The translations under genes were made by a program, and so were the position numbers. Positions 2,811-14,531 of a stretch of DNA of 64,000 nt are shown here, piece by piece. Numbering within the stretch: the first letter of the stretch is position 1; every line of letters starts with the position of its first letter. The notes below the pieces were generated by a model. The model did no database searches, had not been told where the DNA came from, and saw nothing but the letters and a program-made list of their open reading frames with translations. The stretch comes from Rhodobium orientis (lineage in GTDB: Bacteria > Pseudomonadota > Alphaproteobacteria > Rhizobiales > Rhodobiaceae): NCBI RefSeq assembly GCF_003258835.1, contig NZ_NPEV01000001.1, forward strand, positions 1 to 64,000, given 5' to 3'.

Positions 2811-3620
2811 TTACTCTCCCTTGGCGAACTGGGCGCGGACGGAGCCGAGGCCCTCGATGCGGGCCTCGAAGACATTGCCGGGCTTGGCGACGACCATCGG
2901 GCCGAGGGCGCCGGACATGATCTGGTCGCCGGCGCCCAAGGGCCGGCCGACGCGGGCCATGGTCTTTGCCAGCCACAGGGCGGCGTTCAGCGGATGGCCG
3001 AGGCAGGCGGCGCCCGCGCCGGTCGCCATCGGCTCGCCCTTCAGGGTCATCACCATGCCGCAGCTCCGGAGATTGAGGCCGTCGAGTTTCCGCGGCGTGG
3101 TGCCGAGGACGTAGAGGCCGCTGGAGGCGTTGTCGGCGACGGTGTCGAGGATGCGGATATCCCAGTTGGAAATGCGGCTGTCGACGATCTCGACGGCCGG
3201 CAGGACGTATTCGATCGCGCTCATCAGATCGGACATGGTGAGGTCCGGCTCGGCAAGATCCCTGCCGACGACGAAGGCGACCTCCGCCTCGACCTTGGGC
3301 TGGATCAGCGTGCCGACCGGCACCTCCTCGCCCTCCGGCACCGACATGTCGGCGAACAGCATGCCGTAGTCGGGCTGGTCGACGCCGAGCTGCTTCTGCA
3401 CGGAAACGGAGGTCAGGCCGATCTTGCGGCCGACGATCGTGCGGCCGGCATCGAGCCAGCGCTTCGTATTGATCTCCTGGACGGCATAGGCGCCGTCGAC
3501 GTCGCCGTCCTCGAGCATGTCGCGGATCGGCGCGACGGGTTTCTTGGTGGCATGGGCATCGAAGATCGCGTCGGCGGCCTTCTGGATGTTTTCCTCAGTA
3601 GAACTCACGGCGCCTCTCAC
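2811..3620 (-). CDS. xylJ: 2-oxopent-4-enoate hydratase
   Basis: This 269-residue protein (DmpE/XylJ/MhpD family) hydrates 2-oxopent-4-enoate (2-hydroxypenta-2,4-dienoate) to 4-hydroxy-2-oxovalerate. Family motifs are [23 protein letters not shown] (metal-binding acidic residues) and [10 protein letters not shown]. The first possible start is a GTG at 3620 that overlaps the preceding TGA (GTGA overlap). A second GTG at 3608 (265 residues) has a GAGAGG ribosome-binding sequence just upstream and is nearer the usual family length of about 260, so it is a real alternative. It is similar to the decarboxylase at 28-795 and physically associates with it in known systems. Confidence 0.9.
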
Positions 3621-5110
3621 AGCTTCACGCAGACATTGGACAGTTCGGTGTAGAATTCGAGGGAATGGACGCCGCCCTCGCGGCCGATGCCGGACATCTT
3701 GGAGCCGCCGAAGGCGGTCCTGAGATCGCGCAGGAACCAGGAATTCACCCAGATGATGCCGGCCTCAAGGTGCCGCGAGACGCGGTGGGCGCGCGAGACG
3801 TCGCCGGTCCAGACCGCCGCGGCAAGGCCGTAGGGCGTGTCGTTGGCGAGGTGCAGAACCTCGTCCTCGCTATCGAACGGGCGGATGTGGCAGCAGGGGC
3901 CGAAGATCTCCTCCGTCACGATGGCGCTGTCGTCGGGAAGGCCGGTCCAGATGGTCGGCTCGACCCACCAGCCGCCATTGAGGTCGCCCATTTCCGGGAT
4001 GCCGCCGCCGGTAACGACCGTGGCGCCTTCGGCGGCGGCCTTGTCGTAGTAGGACTTTACCTTGGCGCGGTGTTCCTCGGAAATCAGCGGGCCGAGATTG
4101 GTTTCCGGGTCGTCGGAATGGCCGAGCTTCAGGTTCGATGCCTTCTCGGCAAGGGTGGCGACGAATTTCTCGAAGATCGGCCGCTCCACATAGACGCGTT
4201 CGGTGCCGAGGCAGACCTGGCCGCAATTGGCGAAGACCGAGCGCATGGTGCCCTCGATGGCGGCGTCGAAATCGCAGTCGGCAAAGACGATGGCGGGGTT
4301 CTTGCCGCCGAGCTCGAAGGAGACGTCGCGCACGCCCCTGGCGGCGGCTTTCATGATGGCCTCGCCGGTGCGGGTCTCGCCGGTGAAGGTGATGGCGTCG
4401 ACGCCGGGATGCTCGGTGAGGAAGGCGCCGGCGGCATCGGGGCCGTGGCCATGGATGACGTTGTAGACGCCCTTGGGGATGCCGACCGCGTTCATCACCT
4501 CGCCGAGGAGCGTGGTCGTCATCGGGGTCTCTTCCGACGGTTTGACGACGACCGTGTTGCCGCAGGCAAGTGCCGGGCCGACCTTCCAGGTCATCAGCAA
4601 GAGCGGCAGGTTCCAGGGCGAGATGACCCCGATGACGCCCTTCGGCTTCCGCACCGCATAGTTCATGGCACCGGCGCCGTCTGGGGTCTCCAGGAAGAAG
4701 CTCTCGGTGGGGACGTTCTTCACCACGTCCGCAAAAACCTTGAAGTTGGCGGCGCCGCGGGGAATGTCGATATGGGCGGCGAGCGACTTCGGCTTGCCGG
4801 TGTCGGCGATTTCGGCGGCAAGGAAGTCGTCGAAGCGCCGGTCGATCTCGTCGGCGACCGCATAGAGCAGCTTGACGCGCTCGGCCGTCGACATGCGGCC
4901 CCAGTCGCCGTCAAGGGCGGCGCGGGCGGCGGAGACCGCGGCGTCGACGTCTTCCTTCGTTGCCTTGTGGATGACGCCGAGCTTCTCGCCGTTCAGCGGG
5001 CAGATGTTGTCGAAGGTCTCGCCGCCGGAGCCGGCGACGAATTCGCCGTTGATGAAATGCTTGATCTCGACCGTTTCGGTCTCCGCTTTCAGCGCTGTCT
5101 GTGTGCTCAT
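3617..5110 (-). CDS. xylG: 2-hydroxymuconic semialdehyde dehydrogenase
   Basis: This 497-residue NAD+-dependent aldehyde dehydrogenase is of the DmpC/XylG type. It oxidises the ring-cleavage product 2-hydroxymuconate semialdehyde to 2-hydroxymuconate (4-oxalocrotonate branch). The catalytic glutamate is in FELGGKNPAIVF and the nucleophile cysteine in NCGQVCLGTERV; SPWNLPLLL and the KPSEETP cofactor loop are also seen. The ATG at 5110 (MSTQTALKAE) is preferred over an in-frame TTG at 5152. The substrate is inferred from the position between the ring-cleavage dioxygenase and the lower pathway genes; the family alone would allow other aldehydes. Confidence 0.9.
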   Translation of the reverse strand: MSTQTALKAETETVEIKHFINGEFVAGSGGETFDNICPLNGEKLGVIHKATKEDVDAAVSAARAALDGDWGRMSTAERVKLLYAVADEIDRRFDDFLAAEIADTGKPKSLAAHIDIPRGAANFKVFADVVKNVPTESFFLETPDGAGAMNYAVRKPKGVIGVISPWNLPLLLMTWKVGPALACGNTVVVKPSEETPMTTTLLGEVMNAVGIPKGVYNVIHGHGPDAAGAFLTEHPGVDAITFTGETRTGEAIMKAAARGVRDVSFELGGKNPAIVFADCDFDAAIEGTMRSVFANCGQVCLGTERVYVERPIFEKFVATLAEKASNLKLGHSDDPETNLGPLISEEHRAKVKSYYDKAAAEGATVVTGGGIPEMGDLNGGWWVEPTIWTGLPDDSAIVTEEIFGPCCHIRPFDSEDEVLHLANDTPYGLAAAVWTGDVSRAHRVSRHLEAGIIWVNSWFLRDLRTAFGGSKMSGIGREGGVHSLEFYTELSNVCVKL

Positions 5111-5135
5111 CGTCGTCTTTCCGGGCTGGTTGATC

Positions 5136-5570
5136 TTATTTTTCGGGGGCAAGGCCGATGGCTTTCAGCCCGGCCGTTGCGCAGATTTCGTCTTCCTCGG
5201 CCGAGGCACCCGAGACGCCGATGCCGCCGACGATTTTCCCGTCGACCGATATCGGCAGGCCGCCGGCGAACATCACCAGGCGGTCGCGGACCATCAGGCC
5301 GTCGCGCAGCATGTCGTCGCCGGCAACGACCGCGCCCCACTTCGAGGTGGCAAGGCCGAAGCTTGCCGAGGTGAAGGCCTTGTCCTCGGCGATGGAAATG
5401 GAATGGAGCGGCGCGCCGGGCGCCCTCAGGAAGGCCAGCAGGTGGCCGCCGGTATCGACGACCGCGGCGTTGATCGGCCGTTCCATCTCAAGGCCCGTCC
5501 TGACCGCGGCTTGAACCGCGGCCAGGCCGGCCTCGAACGTCAGACAGGTGCTGGGTTCGACAACCTTCAT
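5136..5570 (-). CDS. GlcG/HbpS-family (DUF336) protein
   Basis: This 144-residue protein of the GlcG/HbpS (DUF336) family has the typical glycine-rich end GGLPISVDGKIVGGIGVSGAS and the KAFTSASFGLAT segment. Family members form small octamers; some bind heme and some are found in glycolate, diol or aromatic pathways with no proven catalytic role. It lies between the catechol dioxygenase (12 bp upstream) and the semialdehyde dehydrogenase (25 bp downstream), so it is part of the meta operon. A helper role for dioxygenase iron or for handling a pathway intermediate is inference only. Confidence 0.85.
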   Translation of the reverse strand: MKVVEPSTCLTFEAGLAAVQAAVRTGLEMERPINAAVVDTGGHLLAFLRAPGAPLHSISIAEDKAFTSASFGLATSKWGAVVAGDDMLRDGLMVRDRLVMFAGGLPISVDGKIVGGIGVSGASAEEDEICATAGLKAIGLAPEK

Positions 5571-5582
5571 CGGACTATCCGG

Positions 5583-6503
5583 TCAGGTGACCACCGACAG
5601 GAAGGCTTCGTTGAGTTCGCCTTCGTAGTAGAAGATGCCGCGACCGACCTGGTCGGCGCTCCAGCGGCGGGTCGGGTTGTCGGGGTAGTAGGTGTAGCCG
5701 CCGGCATAGACCTCGTTGCGATTGCCGCTCGGGTCGAAGAAATAGATCGTCTGGCCGCGGGTGATGCCGTGGCGGGTCGGGCCGACGTCCCGGGAGATGT
5801 TGTAGTGGGTCATGATGTCGGCGGCGTGGCCGACGTCGTTCCAGCTCTCCAGGAAGAAGGCGGCGTGGTGGAACTTGCCGGGCTCGGCATGGTTCACGAA
5901 GGCGATGTCGTGGGCCTTGTTGGAGACCGTCAGCCAGATCGCCAGCTTGCCGTCCGGGGTGTCGACATATTCGGCGAGCGAGAAGTCGAGCACGTTGGTG
6001 AACAGGTCGAGGACCTCATTGAGGTTCGGGCCGTAGAGCAAGGCGTGGTCGAAGCGGGTCGCCTTCATGCCGCGCGGCTCGACCGGCCAGATCATCGGGT
6101 TCTCGATCGCCGGGTGGGTCTCCGACATCTCGATGTCGGCATAGAGCTCGATGCGGTGGCCGCTCGGGATGGTGAAGCCGATGCGGCGGCCGACGCCCGG
6201 CTGCTCGCCGGCGGGCACCTCGTCGGTGGCGACGCCGTAGGCGTTGAGGCGCCTGGTGAAGTCATTGAGCGAGGCGTCGCTGTCGACCTTGAAGGCCATC
6301 AGGTCGATGCCGGCCTGGTCGGCCTCACGCAAGATGAAGCTGTGGCGGTCGAACTCGTCCCAGCCCTTCAGAAACACGCGGCCGTCGTCGCTGCGGCTGA
6401 CCTCGTTGAGGCCGACGCGGTCGATGTAGTGGGTCAGCGCCTCATCCATGTCCAGGACGCGGAGCTGGATGAAGCCCGGACGCAAGATCCCTTTGAGTGC
6501 CAT
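5583..6503 (-). CDS. xylE: Catechol 2,3-dioxygenase
   Basis: This 306-residue extradiol dioxygenase (XylE/DmpB, type I, two-domain vicinal oxygen chelate fold) cleaves catechol next to the hydroxyls to give yellow 2-hydroxymuconate semialdehyde. The Fe(II) ligands are visible as His153 (RFDHALLYG), His213 (KFHHAAFFLE) and Glu264 (NRNEVYAGGY), all in the active C-terminal domain. His245 (PTRHGIT) and Tyr254 (QTIYFFD) match the conserved second-shell acid/base residues. The length is the same as XylE within a residue. It follows the ferredoxin gene by 45 bp, as in the TOL and dmp operons where the ferredoxin re-reduces inactivated dioxygenase iron. Confidence 0.95.
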   Translation of the reverse strand: MALKGILRPGFIQLRVLDMDEALTHYIDRVGLNEVSRSDDGRVFLKGWDEFDRHSFILREADQAGIDLMAFKVDSDASLNDFTRRLNAYGVATDEVPAGEQPGVGRRIGFTIPSGHRIELYADIEMSETHPAIENPMIWPVEPRGMKATRFDHALLYGPNLNEVLDLFTNVLDFSLAEYVDTPDGKLAIWLTVSNKAHDIAFVNHAEPGKFHHAAFFLESWNDVGHAADIMTHYNISRDVGPTRHGITRGQTIYFFDPSGNRNEVYAGGYTYYPDNPTRRWSADQVGRGIFYYEGELNEAFLSVVT

Positions 6504-6548
6504 TTGTCGTCTCCCTTGACGTTTCCCGTGATGCCGTTGCGGCTGCCT

Positions 6549-6971
6549 TTAAGCACATTTTTGCCGCGGCACCGGTGTCTTGACCGCGTTGCGCAGCACC
6601 ATGTCGCTGGTCGGCGTGATGCGGCAGGACAGGGCAAAGCCCGCTGCCGCCTCCGCGTCGTCGACATGGTTCTTCCCCATCCGCAAACGGTCGCAGTCGC
6701 CTTGAAGGATCTGGACCCGGCATGCCCCACAGCCGCCGCCCCGGCAGCCGACCTGGATCTTGCGCAGACGCGCCCGCTCCATGGCGGCCAATACCTTTTC
6801 GCCTTCGCGGCAGTCGAAGCTGTCGCCGCTTTCGAAGGTGATGCGGTAGGTCTTCGGGGCCGTTCCGGCGGCATCAGCCATGAAGGCCGGATCCTTCTTC
6901 AACGTTTCCATCGGCGCGAGTTTTGTCCGGTCCGTTATTGCGGGCCGCCGCTCGCTTACGGGATGCATCAT
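6549..6971 (-). CDS. xylT: XylT-type [2Fe-2S] ferredoxin
   Basis: This 140-residue plant-type ferredoxin carries the cluster motif CRGGGCGAC (CX4CX2C) and a fourth cysteine in FALSCRITP. In known meta operons XylT/DmpQ reduces the oxidised, inactive Fe(III) of catechol 2,3-dioxygenase. It is the first gene of the operon. The start is uncertain: an ATG at 6971 gives 140 residues, whereas ATG at 6881 (MADAAGTAPK, with AAGGA upstream) gives 110, which is nearer to the family length. The first 30 residues have no ferredoxin character. Confidence 0.85.
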   Translation of the reverse strand: MMHPVSERRPAITDRTKLAPMETLKKDPAFMADAAGTAPKTYRITFESGDSFDCREGEKVLAAMERARLRKIQVGCRGGGCGACRVQILQGDCDRLRMGKNHVDDAEAAAGFALSCRITPTSDMVLRNAVKTPVPRQKCA

Positions 6972-7329
6972 GAAGGCCTAAAATATCGTCTGTCAACAAA
7001 AATATCGTTATTTAAAGACTCTCTCGTTTATTTGTTTCGGGCAGACGAGCGCTATTGTCCGCCCGGCGACAGGGCGCTTGCGAGACGGGAAAACAGCGGA
7101 TTTTCAGGAATGGTGGAAGCAGCCTGCGGAGGCAGTGCGAGCCCTTTTTATGCGGGCTGCTGAACTCGATATCTGCCCGCGAAGACACATTGACGCCGAG
7201 GAGTTCCGGGAGTGCGCAAGCTACGAACCGGACAGCGGTGGGCTGAGGCGCAGGAGCCCGATGAACGGCATGCCGTGAAGCGGCGGGATCGGATCAGGAT
7301 CCGACGGCGGGCCTTGAGTCGGTTTCGCC
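6972..7329. promoter_or_regulatory. Meta-operon upstream region with direct repeat
   Basis: This 358-bp stretch separates the minus-strand meta operon from the minus-strand gene at 7330. Next to the operon it is AT-rich and holds a 10-bp direct repeat AAAATATCGT at 6980-6989 and 6999-7008 (19-bp step). On the minus strand a TTGACA hexamer (6996-6991) lies between the repeats, but I see no good -10 at the right distance. The repeat looks like a regulator binding site. A 66-codon open frame on the plus strand (7078-7278, TTG start) has unusually low third-position GC and no recognisable product; I do not call it a gene. Confidence 0.4.
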
Positions 7330-7500
7330 TCAGACCGCGGCGGAGCGCCGGGGCTCCTCGCGGCAGGGCTCGTCGTCGGTTGCCGGCTCCTCCACATGGA
7401 GGCGGATGACGTTGGACGGGCCCTTGCCCCGGCGATGGCCGGCCTCGGCAGTCAGGAGTTCGGCGAGGGTCCGGGCGGGCAGCATTCTGAGGGCGATCAT
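7330..7500 (-). CDS. Small protein, 56 residues, unknown
   Basis: This is a short open frame starting MIALRMLPAR and ending RRSAAV, too short for usual gene finders. Codon use looks genuine: third positions are almost all G or C. GGGGAAA lies 5 bp ahead of the ATG. It begins 38 bp after the stop of the Cys-rich gene at 7538-8044 on the same strand, so the two probably form one transcript. The sequence is basic in the middle and acidic toward the end with a single cysteine. I do not recognise the family; its position suggests a role in the iron island, by inference only. Confidence 0.5.
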   Translation of the reverse strand: MIALRMLPARTLAELLTAEAGHRRGKGPSNVIRLHVEEPATDDEPCREEPRRSAAV

Positions 7501-7537
7501 CTGGTTTCCCCGGTTCTGGTTTTTTGGCGCCGGAGCC

Positions 7538-8044
7538 TTAAGGGGCCGGGCGCAGCGCTTGTTGGTCCTGGCGCGGCTCCAGCGTCATGCCGGCCGCGCC
7601 GAGCACGGCGGCGAAATCGCAGGCGGTCTTGACGACCTCGTCGGCGTCGGGCGTGCCGAGGAGGGTGGCGGCAACGCCGCGCACGGCCTCCTCCGTCTCG
7701 TGCTGGCCGGCGGCGATCATGGCGATGCCGAGCCGCTCGTCGCGGCAGAAGGCGACGCCGTCGAAGGGATCGTAGAACGGGTAGAACTCGATCTGCCGGC
7801 TGGCGGCGGCGCTCAGCGCCCGCACCCAGCACGACAGTTCCGTGATCGCGCCCTTGGCCGCGTCGGCGCCGAGCCTGTCGCGATAGATGCGCCAGCCGGC
7901 CTCCCAGCAATTGATGTCGCAGGTGGCGAACCCCGCCATCCAGCAGCGAAAGCCGATGCCGACGAGCCGTTCGGGTATCCTCAGGGTGCCGCCGGCCTCG
8001 CGGAGCGGGCAGATGTCGCCCTTCGGGCATGGAATGCAGTTCAT
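7538..8044 (-). CDS. Cys-rich protein of unknown function
   Basis: This 168-residue protein has nine cysteines: C3, C6 and C12 in CIPCPKGDICPL at the very N terminus, C34, C42 and C46 in a tryptophan-rich stretch (FRCWMAGFATCDINCW), then C72, C100 and C142. No signal peptide or membrane segment is evident. The N-terminal cysteines resemble a metal or Fe-S binding site, but I know no family to assign. The start at 8044 is chosen because it gives the Cys-rich N terminus; an in-frame ATG at 8095 would add 17 arginine-rich residues. It diverges from the iron-regulated imelysin gene across a 284-bp AT-rich region with Fur-like sites, so iron control is plausible. Confidence 0.7.
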   Translation of the reverse strand: MNCIPCPKGDICPLREAGGTLRIPERLVGIGFRCWMAGFATCDINCWEAGWRIYRDRLGADAAKGAITELSCWVRALSAAASRQIEFYPFYDPFDGVAFCRDERLGIAMIAAGQHETEEAVRGVAATLLGTPDADEVVKTACDFAAVLGAAGMTLEPRQDQQALRPAP

Positions 8045-8328
8045 CGCGGCGGCTCCCCTCCACCGTGCGTGCCGTCGTCGCAGCAGGGTGCGCATCTCAT
8101 CCGCATGACGCTAATGAGAATGAGTTGCAATAGCAATAAGTAAAACAGCGGATGTGATTAAATTATAATCGATCTAAGATTATGCCGTGGGATTGTGCAG
8201 AACTGGCGTGTTTCCGGAATTTTTAAATGTCTATGCGCAATATCCCTTAATTGCCATTGAAAATCATTCGCATTAAGAGTAGGGATGCGTCACTCGCCAA
8301 GGCGAGAAAACAAGGGGAAGGACAATTT
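8045..8328. promoter_or_regulatory. Divergent promoter region with Fur-like boxes
   Basis: This AT-rich 284-bp gap lies between the divergent Cys-rich gene and the imelysin operon. TGAAAATCATTCGCA at 8258-8272 is a fair match to the 7-1-7 Fur consensus (TGATAATnATTATCA) and lies about 60 bp before the imelysin start. A second AT-rich stretch at 8112-8136 (starting TAATGAGAATGAG) is a candidate site for the minus-strand gene. Iron repression would fit the imelysin family, many members of which are Fur-controlled. Site calls are by eye. Confidence 0.45.
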
Positions 8329-9618
8329 ATGTTGCCAATCGTACGTGCCCAGTTCGTCCGGGCTTGTGGAGTTGCCGGGCTTGTAGCGGGGCTGACGATG
8401 ATCTCACCCGCCGCCGCCGAGGTTGACGAAAAGGCGGTCCTCGACACCTACGCGGATATCGCGGAGGCAGGCTACGGGGACTCTCTGGCCGCTGCCAGGA
8501 CGCTCGATGCGGCCATCGACAAGTTGATCGCCGATCCTTCCGAGGAAACGCTTGCCGCCGCGAAAGACGCCTGGCGTGCCGCCCGCATTCCCTATCAGCA
8601 GACCGAGGCGTTCCGCTTCGGCAACCCGATCGTCGACGACTGGGAGGGCAAGGTGAATGCCTGGCCGCTCGACGAGGGCCTGATCGACTATGTGAAGACC
8701 GACACTTACGGCATGGAGTCCGACGAGAACGAACTCTTCACCGCCAACGTCATCGCCAATGAGACGATCACCATCGGCGGCAAGGAGATCGACACCTCCA
8801 AGATCACGCCGGAGCTTCTCGGCGAGACCCTGCACGAGGCCGGCGAGGTCGAGGCGAACGTGGCCACCGGTTACCACGCCATCGAGTTCCTGCTCTGGGG
8901 CCAGGACGTCAACGGCACCGACGCCGGCGCCGGGACCCGTCCGGCGACCGATTTCGACACCGCCAACTGCACTGGCGGCCATTGCGACCGTCGCGCGGCC
9001 TACCTCAAGGCGGCTTCCACGCTGATGATCAGCGACCTGGAAGAGATCGCCGCGGCCTGGTCGGACGGCGGGGCGGCCCGCAAGGACGTGATGGAGGGCA
9101 AGGCCGGCCTCGTTCGCATCCTGACCGGCATGGGTTCGCTCTCCTATGGCGAGCTTGCCGGCGAGCGCATGAAGCTTGGCCTGCTGCTGCACGATCCGGA
9201 GGAAGAGCACGACTGCTTCTCCGACAACACGCACATGTCGCACTTCTTGGACGCAAAGGGCATCAGCAACGTCTACCACGGCAAATACACCCGCATTGAC
9301 GGGACCGTCGTGGAGGGGCCGAGCCTGTCCGACCTGGTCGCCGGAAAGAACGCCGACCTCGATAAGGAACTGAGCGGCAAGCTCGAGGCGACCATGGCGG
9401 CGATGACGACCATGAAGGAGCGCGCCGAGGGCGGCGAGGCCTACGACCAGATGATCGGCGAGGGCAATGACGAGGGCAACGCCGTCGTCCAGGCCGCGAT
9501 CGACGCCCTTGTCGACCAGACCCGGTCGATCGAGCGGGTGGTCGCCGAACTCGACCTCGATGCCATCGATTTCGAGGGCTCCGACAGCCTCGACAATCCG
9601 AACGCGGTGTTCCAATGA
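8329..9618 (+). CDS. Imelysin-family (IrpA/EfeO-M75) protein
   Basis: This 429-residue secreted protein of the imelysin / iron-regulated protein A family (peptidase M75-like fold) is exported to the periplasm or outer surface and linked to iron uptake in known members; the peptidase activity once proposed is doubtful. A signal peptide is seen at 1-30 (hydrophobic AGLVAGLTMISPAAA before the cut). The family signature GxHxxE is intact as GYHAIE at residues 181-186, followed by FLLWGQD. The ATG at 8329 has a strong GGGAAGGA ribosome-binding site. Its stop overlaps the Bfd-like gene by 4 bp (ATGA), which couples iron binding outside with Fe-S and ferritin functions inside. Confidence 0.9.
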   Translation: MLPIVRAQFVRACGVAGLVAGLTMISPAAAEVDEKAVLDTYADIAEAGYGDSLAAARTLDAAIDKLIADPSEETLAAAKDAWRAARIPYQQTEAFRFGNPIVDDWEGKVNAWPLDEGLIDYVKTDTYGMESDENELFTANVIANETITIGGKEIDTSKITPELLGETLHEAGEVEANVATGYHAIEFLLWGQDVNGTDAGAGTRPATDFDTANCTGGHCDRRAAYLKAASTLMISDLEEIAAAWSDGGAARKDVMEGKAGLVRILTGMGSLSYGELAGERMKLGLLLHDPEEEHDCFSDNTHMSHFLDAKGISNVYHGKYTRIDGTVVEGPSLSDLVAGKNADLDKELSGKLEATMAAMTTMKERAEGGEAYDQMIGEGNDEGNAVVQAAIDALVDQTRSIERVVAELDLDAIDFEGSDSLDNPNAVFQ

Positions 9619-9947
9619 TCGTCTGCAGTTGCAACGTCATCAGCGATTTTGAAATCGAGGAGGCCGTTCTCGGCCTCCTCGAGGACGATCCCTGGCGGCT
9701 TATCGTCCCCGGCCACGTCTACAAGGAGATGCGGAAACGGGGGAAGTGCTGCAACTGCTTTCCGAACGTCGTCCAGATCATCGAACGCGTCACCGAACGC
9801 TTCCATCGCACCCTGGGAACCGCCGATGCCGACCGCACGGCGGCTTTCCTGTCGAACCTGAAGGCCGAGCACCGCAGGATCGTGGAGATGCGCCGGGCCC
9901 GGCGCGAGGCCGCCGCAAAGCAGTGGAAAAAGACGATCGCCGCGTGA
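9615..9947 (+). CDS. bfd: Bfd-like bacterioferritin-associated ferredoxin
   Basis: This 110-residue protein starts MIVCSCNVIS, like bacterioferritin-associated ferredoxins, which reduce ferritin-stored iron and release Fe(II). The four expected [2Fe-2S] ligands are C4, C6, C45 and C48 (CxC then CCNC). The spacing between pairs is about seven residues longer than in E. coli Bfd, and a charged tail of about 60 residues (RRARREAAAKQWKK) follows. It is translationally coupled to the imelysin gene and lies 105 bp before bacterioferritin, which supports the Bfd role. Confidence 0.8.
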   Translation: MIVCSCNVISDFEIEEAVLGLLEDDPWRLIVPGHVYKEMRKRGKCCNCFPNVVQIIERVTERFHRTLGTADADRTAAFLSNLKAEHRRIVEMRRARREAAAKQWKKTIAA

Positions 9948-10004
9948 TCGCCGGCCGCCCGCCACGACTACGCCCCTTTGAATGTGGCGCCATTCGTTCT
10001 ATTT

Positions 10005-10029
10005 GCATTGGGAGACGACATCCCAATGC
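10005..10029. promoter_or_regulatory. Perfect inverted repeat before bacterioferritin
   Basis: GCATTGGGA (10005-10013) and TCCCAATGC (10021-10029) form a perfect 9-bp inverted repeat with a 7-base spacer, 24 bp before the bfr start codon. It could be an operator for an iron regulator or a hairpin in the bfr leader. It does not match the Irr, RirA or Fur consensus that I know. Confidence 0.5.
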
Positions 10030-10052
10030 GAGACGGAAAGGACGAATAGCCG

Positions 10053-10538
10053 ATGAAGGGCGACCCAAAAGTCATTGAATGTTTGAACGAAGCGCTCTTT
10101 ATGGAACTGGCGGCGATCAACCAGTACTGGCTGCATTACCGGCTGCTGGACGACTGGGGCTACACGCTGCTGGCCAAGAAGGAACGGGAAGAATCCATCG
10201 AGGAGATGGGCCACGCCGACAAGCTGATCGAGCGCATCATCTTCCTGGAGGGGCTTCCAAACCTGCAGACCGTTGCGCCGCTGCGCATCGGGCAGTCCGT
10301 CAAGGAAGTGCTCGACAGCGACCTGGCCGCGGAATACGAGGCGCGCGAGGCCTATGCCAAGTCGCGCGAGGTGTGCCGCGAGGCGCGCGACTACGTCTCC
10401 ATGGAACTCTTCGAGGAACTGCTGACGGACGAGGAAGGTCATATCGACTTCCTGGAAACCCAGCTCGAGCTTTTCAAGGAAATCGGCCCGCAGAACTACG
10501 GCCAGCTCAACGCCGGTCCGGCGAGCGAAGCCGACTAG
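10053..10538 (+). CDS. bfr: Bacterioferritin
   Basis: This 161-residue bacterioferritin forms 24-subunit cytoplasmic iron-storage shells. The ferroxidase ligands are seen as E18 ([12 protein letters not shown]), E51 and H54 in [12 protein letters not shown]94 in EYEAREAY, and E127/H130 in [11 protein letters not shown]. Met52 in the EEMGH motif is the usual heme b ligand, so this is a heme-binding Bfr rather than a plain ferritin. It lies after the Bfd-like gene, separated by a leader with a perfect inverted repeat. Length and motifs are fully typical. Confidence 0.95.
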
Positions 10539-10623
10539 GCCGCCGGCCGATCCCGAATTCGACGGGCCGGCGCATGCCTCGATATGTGCCGGTCCGGCTT
10601 TTGCGTAGTCATTTCCTGATCAA

Positions 10624-12198
10624 ATGCGCGATACGATGCTTGCGGGTGCCCGATGGCGCCGAGGCGCGCGCGTGACGGGGCGGCGTTTCCTTTCGGCGGC
10701 CGGCGTCGGCGCGCTGGCATTCGTTGCCGGCCTTGCCACGACGATCGCTGCCGACAAGGGCGGCCGCGACGACCTTTCCGCCGACGACGCGGCGCGCGTT
10801 GCCGCCGTCATCCGGCCGACCACCGACTTTTCCACGGCCGAGCGCTTCGAGGCTCGATCCGCCGGCGCGGGCACCCATATGAAGCGGGTGACGCGGATGG
10901 CGTTTTCCCAGCCGCTCGCCAATCTGTCCCGCAAAGACGAGACCGAATTCCGCTTCGGCAACGGGCTGTTCGAAAAGCTCTGGGTCTCTTCGCCCTCATC
11001 GACCCGGGCCTCCGACGGCCTCGGGCCGCTCTTCAACGCCCGTTCATGCCAGAGTTGCCATGTGCGCGACGGCCGCGGCCGGCCGCCGGAAGCACCCGGC
11101 GCCAGCGCCGTCTCCATGTTCCTCAGGCTTTCCGTTCCGCCCGAGACCGATGCGGACCGCAAGGCGCTGGCGACGAAGGCGGTGCTCAGCGTTCCGGAGC
11201 CGACCTATGGCGGCCAGCTTCAGGAGTCCGCCGTCACCGGGCTTGCCGCGGAGGGGCAGCTCCATGTGGACTACACCGAAGAGACGGTCGTGCTTGCCGG
11301 CGGCGACACGGTCCGCCTGCGCCGGCCGCACTACCGGGTGACGAATCTCGGCTACGGGCCGATGCACCCGAAGGTGCAGCTCTCTCCGCGCGTGGCGCCG
11401 CAGATGGTCGGCCTCGGGCTGATCGAGCAGATCCACGAGGCCGATATACTTCGCCTTGCCGACCCGATGGATGCCGACGGCGACGGCATTTCCGGCAAGG
11501 CCAGCATGGTGCGCGACCATGATGGAACCCTCGTCCTCGGCCGGTTCGGCTGGAAGGCGTCGATGCCCTCGGTGCTGGAGCAGTCCGCCCACGCCTTTTC
11601 CGGCGATATCGGCATTTCCAATCCCCTGATGCCCGATGCCTTCGGCGACTGCACGGCGCGCCAGCCGGACTGCCGGGGGATGCCGACGGGCGAGCAGGCC
11701 AATCTCGGCGCCACCGAGGCGCCGGATCCGGTGCTGGCGATGGTCGTCCATTATTCTGAGAACGTTGCCGTGCCGGCCCGGCGCGATGTCGGCGATGCCG
11801 CGGTGCTGCGCGGCAAGAAGGCGTTCTACGGTGCCGGTTGCGCCTCCTGCCATACGCCGAAATTCGTCACCCGCCGCGATGCGCCGAACCCGGCCCACCG
11901 CTTCCAGCTCATCTGGCCCTATTCCGATTTCCTCTTGCATGACATGGGCGAGGGGCTTGCCGACCGCCGGCCCGTCGGCGATGCTTCGGGTCGCGACTGG
12001 CGCACGCCGCCACTCTGGGGCATCGGGCTGACAAAGACCGTCAGCGGCCATACCTACTTCCTGCATGACGGGCGCGCCCGCACCCTGCTGGAAGCCATCC
12101 TCTGGCATGGCGGCGAGGCCGAGGCGTCGCGCGATGCCGTCGTCGACCTTCCGCCTTCCGCCCGCGCCGATCTTCTGAAATTCCTGGGGTCCCTGTGA
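10624..12198 (+). CDS. DUF1111 di-heme oxidoreductase (MauG-like)
   Basis: This 524-residue exported c-type cytochrome is of the DUF1111 (di-heme oxidoreductase, 'thiol oxidoreductase') family. An RR-containing leader (GRRFLSAAGVGALAF) is probably a Tat or Sec signal. Two heme c attachment sites are visible: CQSCH near residue 142 and CASCH near residue 409. It begins 85 bp after bfr and its stop overlaps the second imelysin gene (TGATG). The order DUF1111, imelysin, DUF1513 is conserved in other proteobacteria such as Pseudomonas, where it is iron-repressed. Function unproven; periplasmic redox of iron or heme is inferred. The start is uncertain among nearby ATGs (10624, 10636). Confidence 0.85.
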   Translation: MRDTMLAGARWRRGARVTGRRFLSAAGVGALAFVAGLATTIAADKGGRDDLSADDAARVAAVIRPTTDFSTAERFEARSAGAGTHMKRVTRMAFSQPLANLSRKDETEFRFGNGLFEKLWVSSPSSTRASDGLGPLFNARSCQSCHVRDGRGRPPEAPGASAVSMFLRLSVPPETDADRKALATKAVLSVPEPTYGGQLQESAVTGLAAEGQLHVDYTEETVVLAGGDTVRLRRPHYRVTNLGYGPMHPKVQLSPRVAPQMVGLGLIEQIHEADILRLADPMDADGDGISGKASMVRDHDGTLVLGRFGWKASMPSVLEQSAHAFSGDIGISNPLMPDAFGDCTARQPDCRGMPTGEQANLGATEAPDPVLAMVVHYSENVAVPARRDVGDAAVLRGKKAFYGAGCASCHTPKFVTRRDAPNPAHRFQLIWPYSDFLLHDMGEGLADRRPVGDASGRDWRTPPLWGIGLTKTVSGHTYFLHDGRARTLLEAILWHGGEAEASRDAVVDLPPSARADLLKFLGSL

Positions 12199-13286
12199 TG
12201 CCGTTTGTTCACGCCGTTCTCGCCCTTCTCGTTCTCGTCGCGGCCTTTCCCGGTACGGCGGTGGCCGAACCGGTCGACGCCTATCCGCGGATCGTGGAAC
12301 GGACCATCACCGAGTTCATCCGCCCCGGCTACGACCGGCTGGCGGCGGAGGCCGGCGCCATGGACAAGGTCGCCGCTGCGCTCTGCGCGTCGCCGTCCGA
12401 GGAGACGCTCAGTGCTGCCCGCGGGCAGTTCGCCGATCTGGTCGATGCCTGGTCGCGGGTGGAACTCCTCCGCTTCGGCCCGGTGCGCGAGGACAACCGC
12501 TATGAGCGCCTCAATTTCTGGCCGGACCGGCGCAGCCTCGGGCTTCGCCAGGTGCAGCGGATCATTGCAGGCAAGGACGAAAGCGCCATCGGCGCCAAGG
12601 CGCTATGGGACAAGAGCGTCGCCGTCCAGGGCCTCGGGGCGCTGGAATTCGCCCTCTTCGGCACGGGCGCCGACAAGCTCGCCGAAGCCGGCGCTGCCGA
12701 TTTCCGCTGCCGCTACGCCGAATCCATCGCCGCGCGCATGGCCGCGACGGCCGGCGATGTCGCCTCGGACTGGAACAAGGCAGACGGTTTTTCCGCCGTG
12801 CTCCTTGAGCCCGGCGACGACAACCCGGTCTATCGGACCCATGGCGAGGTCGTGCAGGATTTGCTCAGGGCGATGACCGAGGAAATGCAGTTCGTCCGCG
12901 ACCTCAAGATCGTCGCCATCATGGGCGAGGACGCCAAGGACGCGAACCCGCGGGTGGCGCCGTTCCGCCGTGCCGGGCTCACCGTTGCCGCCATCAAGGC
13001 GAATGTGGAATCGGTGCTGGCGATGTTCGAAAAGGGCGACTTCATCTCCGCCCTCGGCGAGGAGGATGCCTGGCTGTCGCAGTCGCTGCGCTTCGAGATC
13101 GGCCAGGTGTTCCAGTCGCTGGGCCAGGTGGAGGACGATTTCGGCAAAGCCTTGCGCGACGAGGACAAGCGCAAGTTCCTCGATCTCGTGCTCCTCAGCC
13201 TGCATGGCGCCAAGGAGTCCATCGGCGACTACTATGCCGGCCGGACCGGGCTCGCCATCGGCTTCAATTCCTTTGACGGAGACTGA
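12198..13286 (+). CDS. Second imelysin-family protein, variant motif
   Basis: This 362-residue secreted protein has a signal peptide at about 1-22 (hydrophobic LALLVLVAAFPGTAVA) and the imelysin fold in shorter form. It is the PA4372-like member of the conserved DUF1111/imelysin/DUF1513 block. The signature site reads GLGALE (before FALFG) instead of GxHxxE, so the histidine is missing, as in other members of this subgroup. The ATG at 12198 overlaps the DUF1111 stop (TGATG), and the DUF1513 gene follows after 2 bp, so the three are one translation unit. Probably periplasmic; exact ligand unknown. Confidence 0.85.
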   Translation: MPFVHAVLALLVLVAAFPGTAVAEPVDAYPRIVERTITEFIRPGYDRLAAEAGAMDKVAAALCASPSEETLSAARGQFADLVDAWSRVELLRFGPVREDNRYERLNFWPDRRSLGLRQVQRIIAGKDESAIGAKALWDKSVAVQGLGALEFALFGTGADKLAEAGAADFRCRYAESIAARMAATAGDVASDWNKADGFSAVLLEPGDDNPVYRTHGEVVQDLLRAMTEEMQFVRDLKIVAIMGEDAKDANPRVAPFRRAGLTVAAIKANVESVLAMFEKGDFISALGEEDAWLSQSLRFEIGQVFQSLGQVEDDFGKALRDEDKRKFLDLVLLSLHGAKESIGDYYAGRTGLAIGFNSFDGD

Positions 13287-13288
13287 CC

Positions 13289-14377
13289 GTGATCGAGATC
13301 GACCGGCGCCGGTTCCTTGCCGGCGCGCTTGCCAGCGGGCTGGCGACGGCCGTTGCCGTGCCGGCAGAGGCGTCCGGGGGCGAAGCGACCTATGTCACCG
13401 CGATCCGCAACGCCGACGGCAGCTTCGGCGTCGCCGTTCTCAACGCGGAGGGAACCCTCCTTTTCACCGACACCATGGAGGGGCGGGGCCACGGTGCCAC
13501 CGTCTCGCCGGACAATTCGACCGCTGTCGTCTTCGGCCGGCGGCCGGGCAAGTTCGCGGCCGTGGTCGACATTGCGGCCGGAAGGATCGTGCGCACCATT
13601 CCGGCGGCGAAGGGCCGCCATTTCTGCGGCCACGGGCTCTATACGCCGGACGGGCGCCTGCTCTATGCGACCGAGAACGCCTATGAGCTGGAAAAAGGGA
13701 TGCTCGGCGTCTATGACGTTGCGGCAGACTACCGGCGCATCGGCGAGATCTGGACCGGCGGCATCGGCCCGCACGAGACGCTGCTGATGCCGGACGGCAA
13801 GATGGCGGTCGTCGCCAATGGCGGCATCCTGATCGATCCGATGTATGGCCGCCAGAAGCTCAACATCGCCACCATGGAGCCCTCGCTCGCCTATCTCGAC
13901 CTTGAGAGCGGCGACGTCGTCGACAAGATGGAGCTTGGGCCTGAGCGCCACCAGCTGTCGATCCGCCATATCAGCATCGACGGCGAGGGTGCGGTCTGGT
14001 TCGGCTGCCAGTATGAGGGGCCGAAGACCGACCGGGTGCCGCTGATCGGCAAGCACAAGCGGGAGGGCGAGCCCCAGATGATGTCGGCGCCGCCGCAGGT
14101 CATGCGCGGCTACCGGCAGTATGTGGGCTCGGTCGCCACCAGCCGCGACGGCACGCACGTCGCCACCTCCAGCCCGCGCGGCGGCGTCATGACGATCTGG
14201 AACTGCGCCACCGGGACCATCGTCTCGGAAGCGAAGGTAGAAGACGTCTGCGGTCTTGCGCCCGATGCCGGCAACGCCTTCTTCGGCACCTCCGGCACCG
14301 GCCTCGTCTTCGACGGCGACAGGAACCTCGCCCGCTATCCGGGCATCGCCTTCGACAACCACATGCGGATGGTTTGA
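13289..14377 (+). CDS. DUF1513 beta-propeller-like exported protein
   Basis: This 362-residue DUF1513 protein has a clear Tat signal (DRRRFLAGALASGLATAV). Mature sequence has repeated blade-like segments (VLNAEGTLLFTDTM, VVDIAAGRIVRT, GHGLYTPDGRLLYATEN) and a histidine-rich GPHETLLMPDGK, as expected for a seven-bladed propeller. It starts with GTG, 2 bp after the imelysin stop. Members always travel with imelysin and DUF1111; no enzymatic role is established. It is the last gene of this unit, followed by a convergent gene and a palindromic repeat. Confidence 0.85.
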   Translation: MIEIDRRRFLAGALASGLATAVAVPAEASGGEATYVTAIRNADGSFGVAVLNAEGTLLFTDTMEGRGHGATVSPDNSTAVVFGRRPGKFAAVVDIAAGRIVRTIPAAKGRHFCGHGLYTPDGRLLYATENAYELEKGMLGVYDVAADYRRIGEIWTGGIGPHETLLMPDGKMAVVANGGILIDPMYGRQKLNIATMEPSLAYLDLESGDVVDKMELGPERHQLSIRHISIDGEGAVWFGCQYEGPKTDRVPLIGKHKREGEPQMMSAPPQVMRGYRQYVGSVATSRDGTHVATSSPRGGVMTIWNCATGTIVSEAKVEDVCGLAPDAGNAFFGTSGTGLVFDGDRNLARYPGIAFDNHMRMV

Positions 14378-14432
14378 GGGCCGGTGGGCGGAGTTTCAGC
14401 AAGTGGTGCATTGCGCTCGGGAGCGCGCTGCG

Positions 14433-14531
14433 CTGGATTGCTTCGCTGCGCTCGCAATGACGGTAATTTATTGATTTATTGGGGGTTTTTCGTCATTGCG
14501 AGGAGGCCGTAAGGCCGACGCGGCAATCCAG
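14433..14531. repeat. Palindromic repeat A, copy 1
   Basis: The arms CTGGATTGCTTCGCTGCGCT...GCAATGACG and CGTCATTGCGAGGAGGC...CGGCAATCCAG face each other around a T-rich centre. It fills the gap between the convergent DUF1513 and phosphatase genes (14378-14575). Three more copies lie in this window. As RNA it would fold into a long stem and could end transcription from both sides. Confidence 0.85.

Follow-up and report, generated by a model that had tools for sequence, protein, structure and literature searches.

Within a 64,000-nucleotide stretch of the Rhodobium orientis genome (contig NZ_NPEV01000001.1 of assembly GCF_003258835.1; this whole stretch is referred to as the window), genes for two imelysins, a di-heme oxidoreductase (DHOR, formerly DUF1111), a DUF1513 protein, a Bfd-like ferredoxin and a bacterioferritin (Bfr) lie side by side, which raises the question of what such a combination of genes does. 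The first-pass annotation of this DNA had taken it as a hint of a single iron or heme path leading from the envelope to ferritin. We consider the locus instead to be a copy of a known alphaproteobacterial iron-limitation cluster whose periplasmic and cytoplasmic arms would together serve a single response to iron starvation, and assign to this reading a probability of about 70%. The features of the locus, with gene families taken from Pfam and NCBIfam scans, are as follows.

7538–8044, minus strand: divergently oriented gene of an unnamed family, 168 amino acids; no Pfam or NCBIfam family at E ≤ 0.001; AlphaFold model all-helical
8110–8134, no strand assigned: pair of overlapping Fur-like matches (13/19 each), 66 bp ahead of the divergent gene
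8253–8277, no strand assigned: pair of overlapping Fur-like matches (13/19 each), 51 bp ahead of imelysin 1
8329–9618, plus strand: imelysin 1 (M75, ICMP/IrpA type); PF09375, E = 6e-88; GxHxxE motif
9615–9947, plus strand: Bfd-like [2Fe-2S] protein, long variant, 110 amino acids; PF04324, E = 0.0011, under the cut-off
9992–10047, plus strand: bfr-leader stem-loop; RNA fold of 9948–10055, z −3.05
10053–10538, plus strand: bacterioferritin; TIGR00754 equivalog, 197.9 bits vs a cut-off of 125.55
10563–10596, plus strand: terminator-like stem between bfr and DHOR, 14 pairs then GCTTTTGCGT
10624–12198, plus strand: DHOR; PF06537, E = 5e-102; two CxxCH
12198–13286, plus strand: imelysin 2 (GxxxxE type, motif His absent); PF09375, E = 2e-45
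13289–14377, plus strand: DUF1513 protein; PF07433, E = 3e-105

Between 8329 and 14377, the six named genes are all present on the plus strand in the order given by the first-pass annotation, namely imelysin 1, Bfd-like, bacterioferritin, DHOR, imelysin 2 and DUF1513, and the family scores support every assignment except the weak one for Bfd. The starts of imelysin 1 (ATG at 8329), imelysin 2 (ATG at 12198) and the divergent gene (8044) were read by eye. The island had been drawn from 7330; its six genes begin at 8329, and the part from 7330 to about 8300, as far as examined, contains the divergent gene and intergenic sequence, outside the named set. The reported ATGA overlap of the imelysin 1 and Bfd-like genes is confirmed (ATG at 9615, TGA at 9616–9618), and DHOR and imelysin 2 overlap by TGATG at 12196–12200.

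The six genes follow, on one strand, the published order of a cluster from Rhodobacter sphaeroides 2.4.1, so the arrangement has already been described; statements on published work here and below rest on the available parts of the cited articles. In that bacterium, hemP-irpA-bfd-bfr is followed by RSP_1545–1543, for which the article lists a probable thiol oxidoreductase carrying two heme sites of cytochrome c, a protein with a signal peptide and one hypothetical protein, and differential RNA sequencing (dRNA-seq) strongly suggests their co-transcription (PMC4618611, 2015). Judged from order and description, not from sequence comparison, RSP_1544 would correspond to imelysin 2 and RSP_1543 to the DUF1513 protein. 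The R. sphaeroides genes are iron-responsive: under iron limitation, irpA, bfd and bfr rise 4.05-, 2.71- and 1.99-fold in the wild type and 19.66-, 12.31- and 4.52-fold in an irr mutant (PMC3413700). This published response and the gene families agree with the earlier description of the region as an iron locus. In addition, control of RSP_1547 and RSP_1548 by RSP_0443 has been predicted (PMC4344238). The two loci differ in that the R. sphaeroides operon is headed by HemP, none of which was found in the R. orientis genome, whereas the divergent unnamed gene and the terminator-like stem before DHOR are features of the locus described here.

The locus also resembles the Fur-regulated PA4370–PA4373 genes of Pseudomonas aeruginosa, which include two imelysins and a DUF1111 gene (PMC3143127). 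Both encode a GxHxxE ICMP-type imelysin, a DUF1111 protein and then a GxxxxE imelysin, whereas the P. aeruginosa operon, as described in that article, is without bfd-bfr. With the EfeUOB system the locus shares an M75 protein working with a periplasmic heme enzyme, but neither an EfeU (FTR1) permease nor a DyP-type EfeB was found among the seven cluster proteins scanned. EfeB is exported by the Tat route and belongs to the DyP-type peroxidases; it is not known as a di-heme protein with CxxCH motifs. In one article, EfeB is called DUF1111 (PMC3143127). A further likeness is provided by plasmid unnamed4 of Phaeobacter sp. G2 (CP104104.1), where an imelysin, a (2Fe-2S) protein, bfr, a c-type cytochrome, an imelysin and DUF1513 are encoded on one strand; the differences are the presence of HemP and a porin gene located between imelysin 1 (annotated as 'peptidase') and the (2Fe-2S) protein. 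The porin (L218:8358–9374) may point to a gate in the outer membrane through which the substrate of this system enters.

The spread of the cluster was assessed in three sets of loci, all picked by similarity to imelysin 1 and not mutually independent. The near set comprises the best 80 of at least 589 confirmed imelysin 1 matches in named genomes; the class set comprises 34 loci drawn from the 40 genomes, out of 192, that had an imelysin 1 match, excluding the R. orientis genome and five genomes with weaker matches; and the relatives set comprises 29 loci with flanks of only ~1.5 kb, contributed by 28 genomes out of a further 60 that were searched. The core formed by imelysin 1, DHOR, imelysin 2 and DUF1513 is present in 72/80 near and 29/34 class loci, and DHOR lies downstream of imelysin 1 in all 34 class loci and in 79 of the 80 near ones, the single exception (L036) stopping at a contig end. 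A Bfd-like gene was found downstream of imelysin 1 in 22/80 near, 0/34 class and 7/29 relatives loci, and all six genes are colinear in 18/80 near loci. Less commonly, a Bfd-Bfr pair is located upstream of imelysin 1 (2/80 near loci) or lies upstream in divergent orientation (2/29 relatives loci). These counts suggest that the core is general and that Bfd-Bfr is a patchy extra, seen in Hyphomicrobiales such as Mesorhizobium and in the Rhodobacterales Phaeobacter and R. sphaeroides; two of the loci, L006 and L092, have the same Bfd-like sequence and are therefore not independent. The imelysin–bfd/bfr linkage proposed by the first-pass annotation thus holds in some relatives and in none of the 34 class loci, and the adjacency, whose restriction to this genome it had named as grounds for refutation, recurs with matching order in R. 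sphaeroides and Phaeobacter sp. G2 as well as in the colinear near loci.

Other details of the arrangement vary among relatives. The ATGA coupling is not a conserved trait: imelysin 1 and the Bfd-like gene overlap by 4 bases (gap −4) in R. orientis and one congener, and the remaining 28 loci with a measurable gap have +24 to +217 bases between them. In Roseivivax sp. THAF197b the core is immediately preceded by genes for TonB, ExbB and ExbD, and HemP immediately precedes imelysin 1 in Phaeobacter and Paracoccus. A HemP-like motif was recovered in 3/3 annotated HemP loci, 1/80 near, 1/34 class and 0/29 relatives loci and is absent from the 64 kb window, HemP at the head of the operon being taken here as an accessory rather than a defining feature.

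The region between the two divergent genes (8045–8328) was scanned with a 19-base consensus, which we take to be that of Fur, and matches were scored out of 19. It holds two Fur-like places, each reaching 13/19 twice with a 6-base shift. They lie within 170 bp of each other and represent two of the only four places in the window that reach 13/19, and both are readable in the congener locus L004, where the site of imelysin 1 has one substitution. The R. orientis genome contains four FUR-family and two Rrf2-family matches above cut-off, so that both Fur and IscR/RirA-type regulators are possible. An Irr-type (ICE) site is not claimed, the best candidate having 11 matches, a value equalled in 72 of 500 resampled regions. 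No Rfam family reached its gathering score in 7300–14500.

Among the proteins of the putative periplasmic arm, imelysin 1 carries the motif GYHAIE, which has the GxHxxE form, and its closest solved structure is 7xrx, an insulin-cleaving metalloproteinase (E = 1e-118). Its N terminus, read by eye, is signal-peptide-like, and the protein is probably exported. Imelysin 2 carries GLGALE, the GxxxxE form without His. In DHOR, the haem motifs CQSCH at 142 and CASCH at 406, together with the family score, place the protein in the DHOR/DUF1111 family; no solved relative was found by sequence at E ≤ 0.001. Among the loci compared, which overlap and are in some cases cut by their own ends, GxHxxE is present in 143 of 144 imelysin 1 proteins, the His-less motif in 92 of 103 imelysin 2 proteins (the other 11 matched neither pattern), and two CxxCH motifs in 125 of 132 DHOR proteins. 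Proteins matched in part by the DUF1513 protein include PkwA and hydrazine synthase beta (best E = 4e-11); we take these to be propellers, and the DUF1513 protein is itself a possible beta-propeller. Its N terminus (13289–13375) contains DRRRFL and looks Tat-like by eye; the partner proteins look Sec-exported. With regard to metal binding in the M75 family, an M75-only protein from Pseudomonas syringae prefers copper, iron and zinc (PMC9174327).

Turning to the cytoplasmic arm, the Bfd-like protein has cysteines at positions 4, 6, 45, 46 and 48, arranged as CxC-x38-CCxC, and a long predicted C-terminal helix. Cys 4, 6, 45 and 48 form the four-cysteine pattern of Bfd (CxC...CxxC) and are invariant in 15 aligned Bfd-like members, this protein included, all 15 of which match PF04324 at E ≤ 1. 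The AlphaFold model (mean predicted local distance difference test (pLDDT) 84.6; predicted template modelling score (pTM) 0.65) has P. aeruginosa Bfd as its top fold match (4e6k_G; Z 5.8, 54 aligned, root-mean-square deviation 2.1), and Bfd entries rank 1, 2 and 7 of 602 chains (Z 5.8, 5.7 and 5.0). Unrelated rows fall within 1 Z of these, and the fold-alignment tool cautions that Z values of such size may reflect a common arrangement; the predicted fold gives modest backing to the Bfd identity. By sequence, the Bfd-like profile matched nothing but designed proteins in the PDB. No stand-alone canonical Bfd was matched in the PF04324 search of the R. orientis genome, where the two matches elsewhere fall within much longer open frames (445 and 516 codons) and are thus probably not stand-alone Bfd. 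Bfd-like proteins occur in at least 10 of 387 class genomes at E ≤ 0.001, mostly as weak matches, with a maximum of 12 candidates scored per genome.

The genome has two PF00210 matches, of which this bacterioferritin is one; it is assigned by its equivalog score and by residues E18, E51, H54, E94, E127 and H130, which we take to be the full set of ferroxidase ligands, and M52, presumably the heme ligand. In its leader, the outer arm of the stem-loop pairs over the AGGA preceding the bfr start, and this element could tune Bfr translation; among the loci compared, which were searched for this stem sequence alone, only R. orientis and the congener L004 have the inner stem sequence. In P. aeruginosa, Bfd acts in iron release from bacterioferritin, and deletion of bfd leads to an irreversible build-up of iron in BfrB (PMC7760384). 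By analogy, the Bfd-like ferredoxin of R. orientis would pair with Bfr and empty it. This release role, combined with the joint rise of irpA, bfd and bfr under iron limitation, is in keeping with a ferritin arm that draws iron out of the store instead of loading it, and hence the direction given to the ferritin step by the first-pass annotation was most likely backwards.

The following scheme is proposed for the locus. Upon iron scarcity, Fur would leave the divergent promoters of the region 8044–8329. In the periplasm, both imelysins would bind iron, DHOR, with the DUF1513 protein as its partner, would alter the redox state of this iron, and an inner-membrane transporter encoded at another locus would then take over the redox-altered iron. 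The Bfd-like ferredoxin would reduce the bacterioferritin core in the cytoplasm, freeing stored iron. The two arms would have a common signal, not a common substrate channel. The periplasmic arm is suggested by the protein families, by the TonB-ExbBD neighbours in Roseivivax and the HemP neighbours elsewhere, and by metal binding in the M75 family.

Several observations weigh against this scheme, some concerning its signals and components and others, given in the next paragraph, the unity of its transcript. In 39 of 500 trials, a resampled upstream region reached 13/19 at some position, which makes each Fur-like site weak on its own, while the pair would be more telling than one; the two internal gaps gave no Fur-like site, their best scores being 8 and 9 of 19. 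R. sphaeroides uses IscR and the Iron-Rhodo-box, whereas Fur is proposed for the Fur-like sites found here. PF10636 (HemP) has no match at E ≤ 0.001 in the R. orientis genome, in whose 244-contig assembly a small HemP protein could escape detection. The Bfd call of the first-pass annotation stands as Bfd-like and is weak by sequence: the protein scores 19.6 bits with PF04324 (Fer2_BFD), under the cut-off of 26, and its x38 spacing is six residues longer than the x32 of CxC-x32-CxxC in Escherichia coli Bfd, which we assume to be canonical, and for this spacing the protein is filed as Bfd-like, not Bfd. Finally, the literature found on these families yielded no experiment on the action of DHOR or DUF1513, and the available parts of the R. 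sphaeroides articles gave no iron-limitation value for RSP_1545, RSP_1544 or RSP_1543.

The points on transcription bear on an alternative in which two independent iron units happen to be neighbours, the first ending at the stem after bfr and the second having its own promoter and its own job, a possibility that we regard as unlikely. The terminator-like stem at 10563–10596 separates bfr from DHOR; the fold of 10563–10606 has −27.7 kcal/mol, and the stem is the longest of 8 terminator-like sites in 8040–14500 (vs 4.2 expected from shuffles). The congener L004 has a matching stem, in which one base change turns G-U into A-U (pairing by eye). In R. orientis, the terminator-like stem, as a predicted element, speaks against full read-through from bfr into DHOR. 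In an iscR mutant of R. sphaeroides, the log2 changes are 2.53 for irpA, 2.30 for bfd and 1.50 for bfr, as compared with 0.59 for RSP_1545 (failing the authors' criteria), 0.92 for RSP_1544 and 0.72 for RSP_1543; the second block thus answers the loss of IscR less, and besides the IscR site proposed at the hemP promoter, another was proposed inside the operon (PMC4618611). Together, the stem and the weaker IscR response suggest that the two blocks may be partly separate. Such a split would also agree with the absence of a Bfd-like gene after imelysin 1 in 58/80 near and 34/34 class loci, which makes the linkage optional, and with Sinorhizobium meliloti Ak57, where the imelysin gene and the bfd-bfr pair are ~0.58 Mb apart on one replicon. 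However, the nearly constant association of imelysin 1 with DHOR (79/80 near, 34/34 class) indicates that the natural unit spans the proposed boundary, and in R. sphaeroides, besides the likely co-transcription, the available part of the article reports no transcription start directly upstream of RSP_1545 (PMC4618611). The promoter scan gave no candidate between bfr and DHOR, yet this simple scan was equally empty upstream of imelysin 1, with no sigma-70-like promoter in 8044–8329.

Another explanation, in our view quite improbable, is that the periplasmic block is a system for oxidative stress or protein oxidation and not for iron uptake, with DHOR acting as a peroxidase or protein-modifying enzyme and imelysin as a protease. 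The DHOR family is indeed annotated as putative peroxidase, imelysins were originally filed as peptidases (PMC3143127), and irpA and bfd of R. sphaeroides rise further with oxygen in an OxyR-dependent manner (PMC4176601). Against these stand Fur control of the P. aeruginosa genes (PMC3143127), the response of irpA to iron limitation (PMC3413700), the metal-binding M75 protein (PMC9174327) and the TonB-ExbBD neighbours in Roseivivax. The single channelled path from envelope to ferritin, or its variant in which heme is taken up and heme iron is stored in Bfr, appears least probable by far. It draws on gene adjacency and on HemP adjoining the cluster in Phaeobacter, Paracoccus and R. sphaeroides, but no inner-membrane transporter was found among the seven proteins scanned, Bfd serves release (PMC7760384), and it is iron scarcity that induces the genes (PMC3413700); in addition, the R. 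orientis genome has no hemP match and the HemP-like motif is limited to one near and one class locus. The path suggested by the first-pass annotation is accordingly replaced here by one starvation response with two arms.

A separate matter is the divergent gene at 7538–8044, which lies across the Fur-like sites from imelysin 1. Searches with 16 aligned members of its family at E ≤ 10 gave scattered single matches only. At E ≤ 0.001, the family profile matches 103 of the 297 genomes of the order; the R. orientis genome has two matches, and no relatives were found in plasmids at this threshold. Alignment blocks are located around PERLV..G.R.WMAGY and FP..C...CRDEC, and a C-terminal His is present in 13 of 16 aligned members; the member studied here ends in Pro. 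The AlphaFold model of this protein, predicted to be all-helical, has a pTM of 0.80 and gave no Foldseek match at E ≤ 0.001 and no VIA-align Z ≥ 5 among 990 chains, a result that says nothing on novelty.

The neighbourhoods of this family were inspected in 20 fetched loci, a hand-chosen and non-random sample. Imelysin 1 is directly downstream in 8 of them, whereas 5 have the gene between the binding-protein and permease genes of a transporter cluster. At L207, the one transporter locus checked, the binding protein matches FbpA (1q35, E = 2e-103) and the permease matches PF00528. L205 has a transporter binding-protein gene upstream and DHOR downstream of the divergent-family gene, and a Bfd-like gene adjoins it in L212 and L217. 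The layout of L212 is split, with the unnamed gene, Bfd-like, imelysin 2 and DUF1513 on one strand and imelysin 1 and DHOR divergent. Four loci (L198, L208, L213 and L216) are without an imelysin, transporter or Bfd-like neighbour, including that of the second R. orientis copy (G000:C199, L198:4947–5486). We tentatively propose, as a possibility carrying considerable doubt, that the divergent gene represents an undescribed Hyphomicrobiales iron-handling family, probably cytoplasmic, whose helical product may act as an iron, heme or Fe-S factor coupling iron entry to the use of the Bfr store, and may employ the FPxxCxxxCRDE region and the frequent C-terminal His for this role. The family is possibly the sole potentially new element of the locus.

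Beyond the divergent gene, the minus strand of 3617–6971 encodes a catechol 2,3-dioxygenase-like protein (5583–6503) and a Fer2 ferredoxin (6549–6971), both assigned by Pfam, as well as an aldehyde dehydrogenase and a GlcG-like protein recognized by eye; this region looks like an aromatic meta-cleavage cluster.

With respect to its biological meaning, the locus is a further instance of a known arrangement and not a new kind. It would represent a compact iron-starvation kit that combines capture at the envelope with release from the store, and, being conserved, the cluster offers a reasonable system in which to study the function of imelysins and of DUF1111 and DUF1513 proteins. If the role suggested for the divergent gene is true, it would encode a new iron-homeostasis protein.

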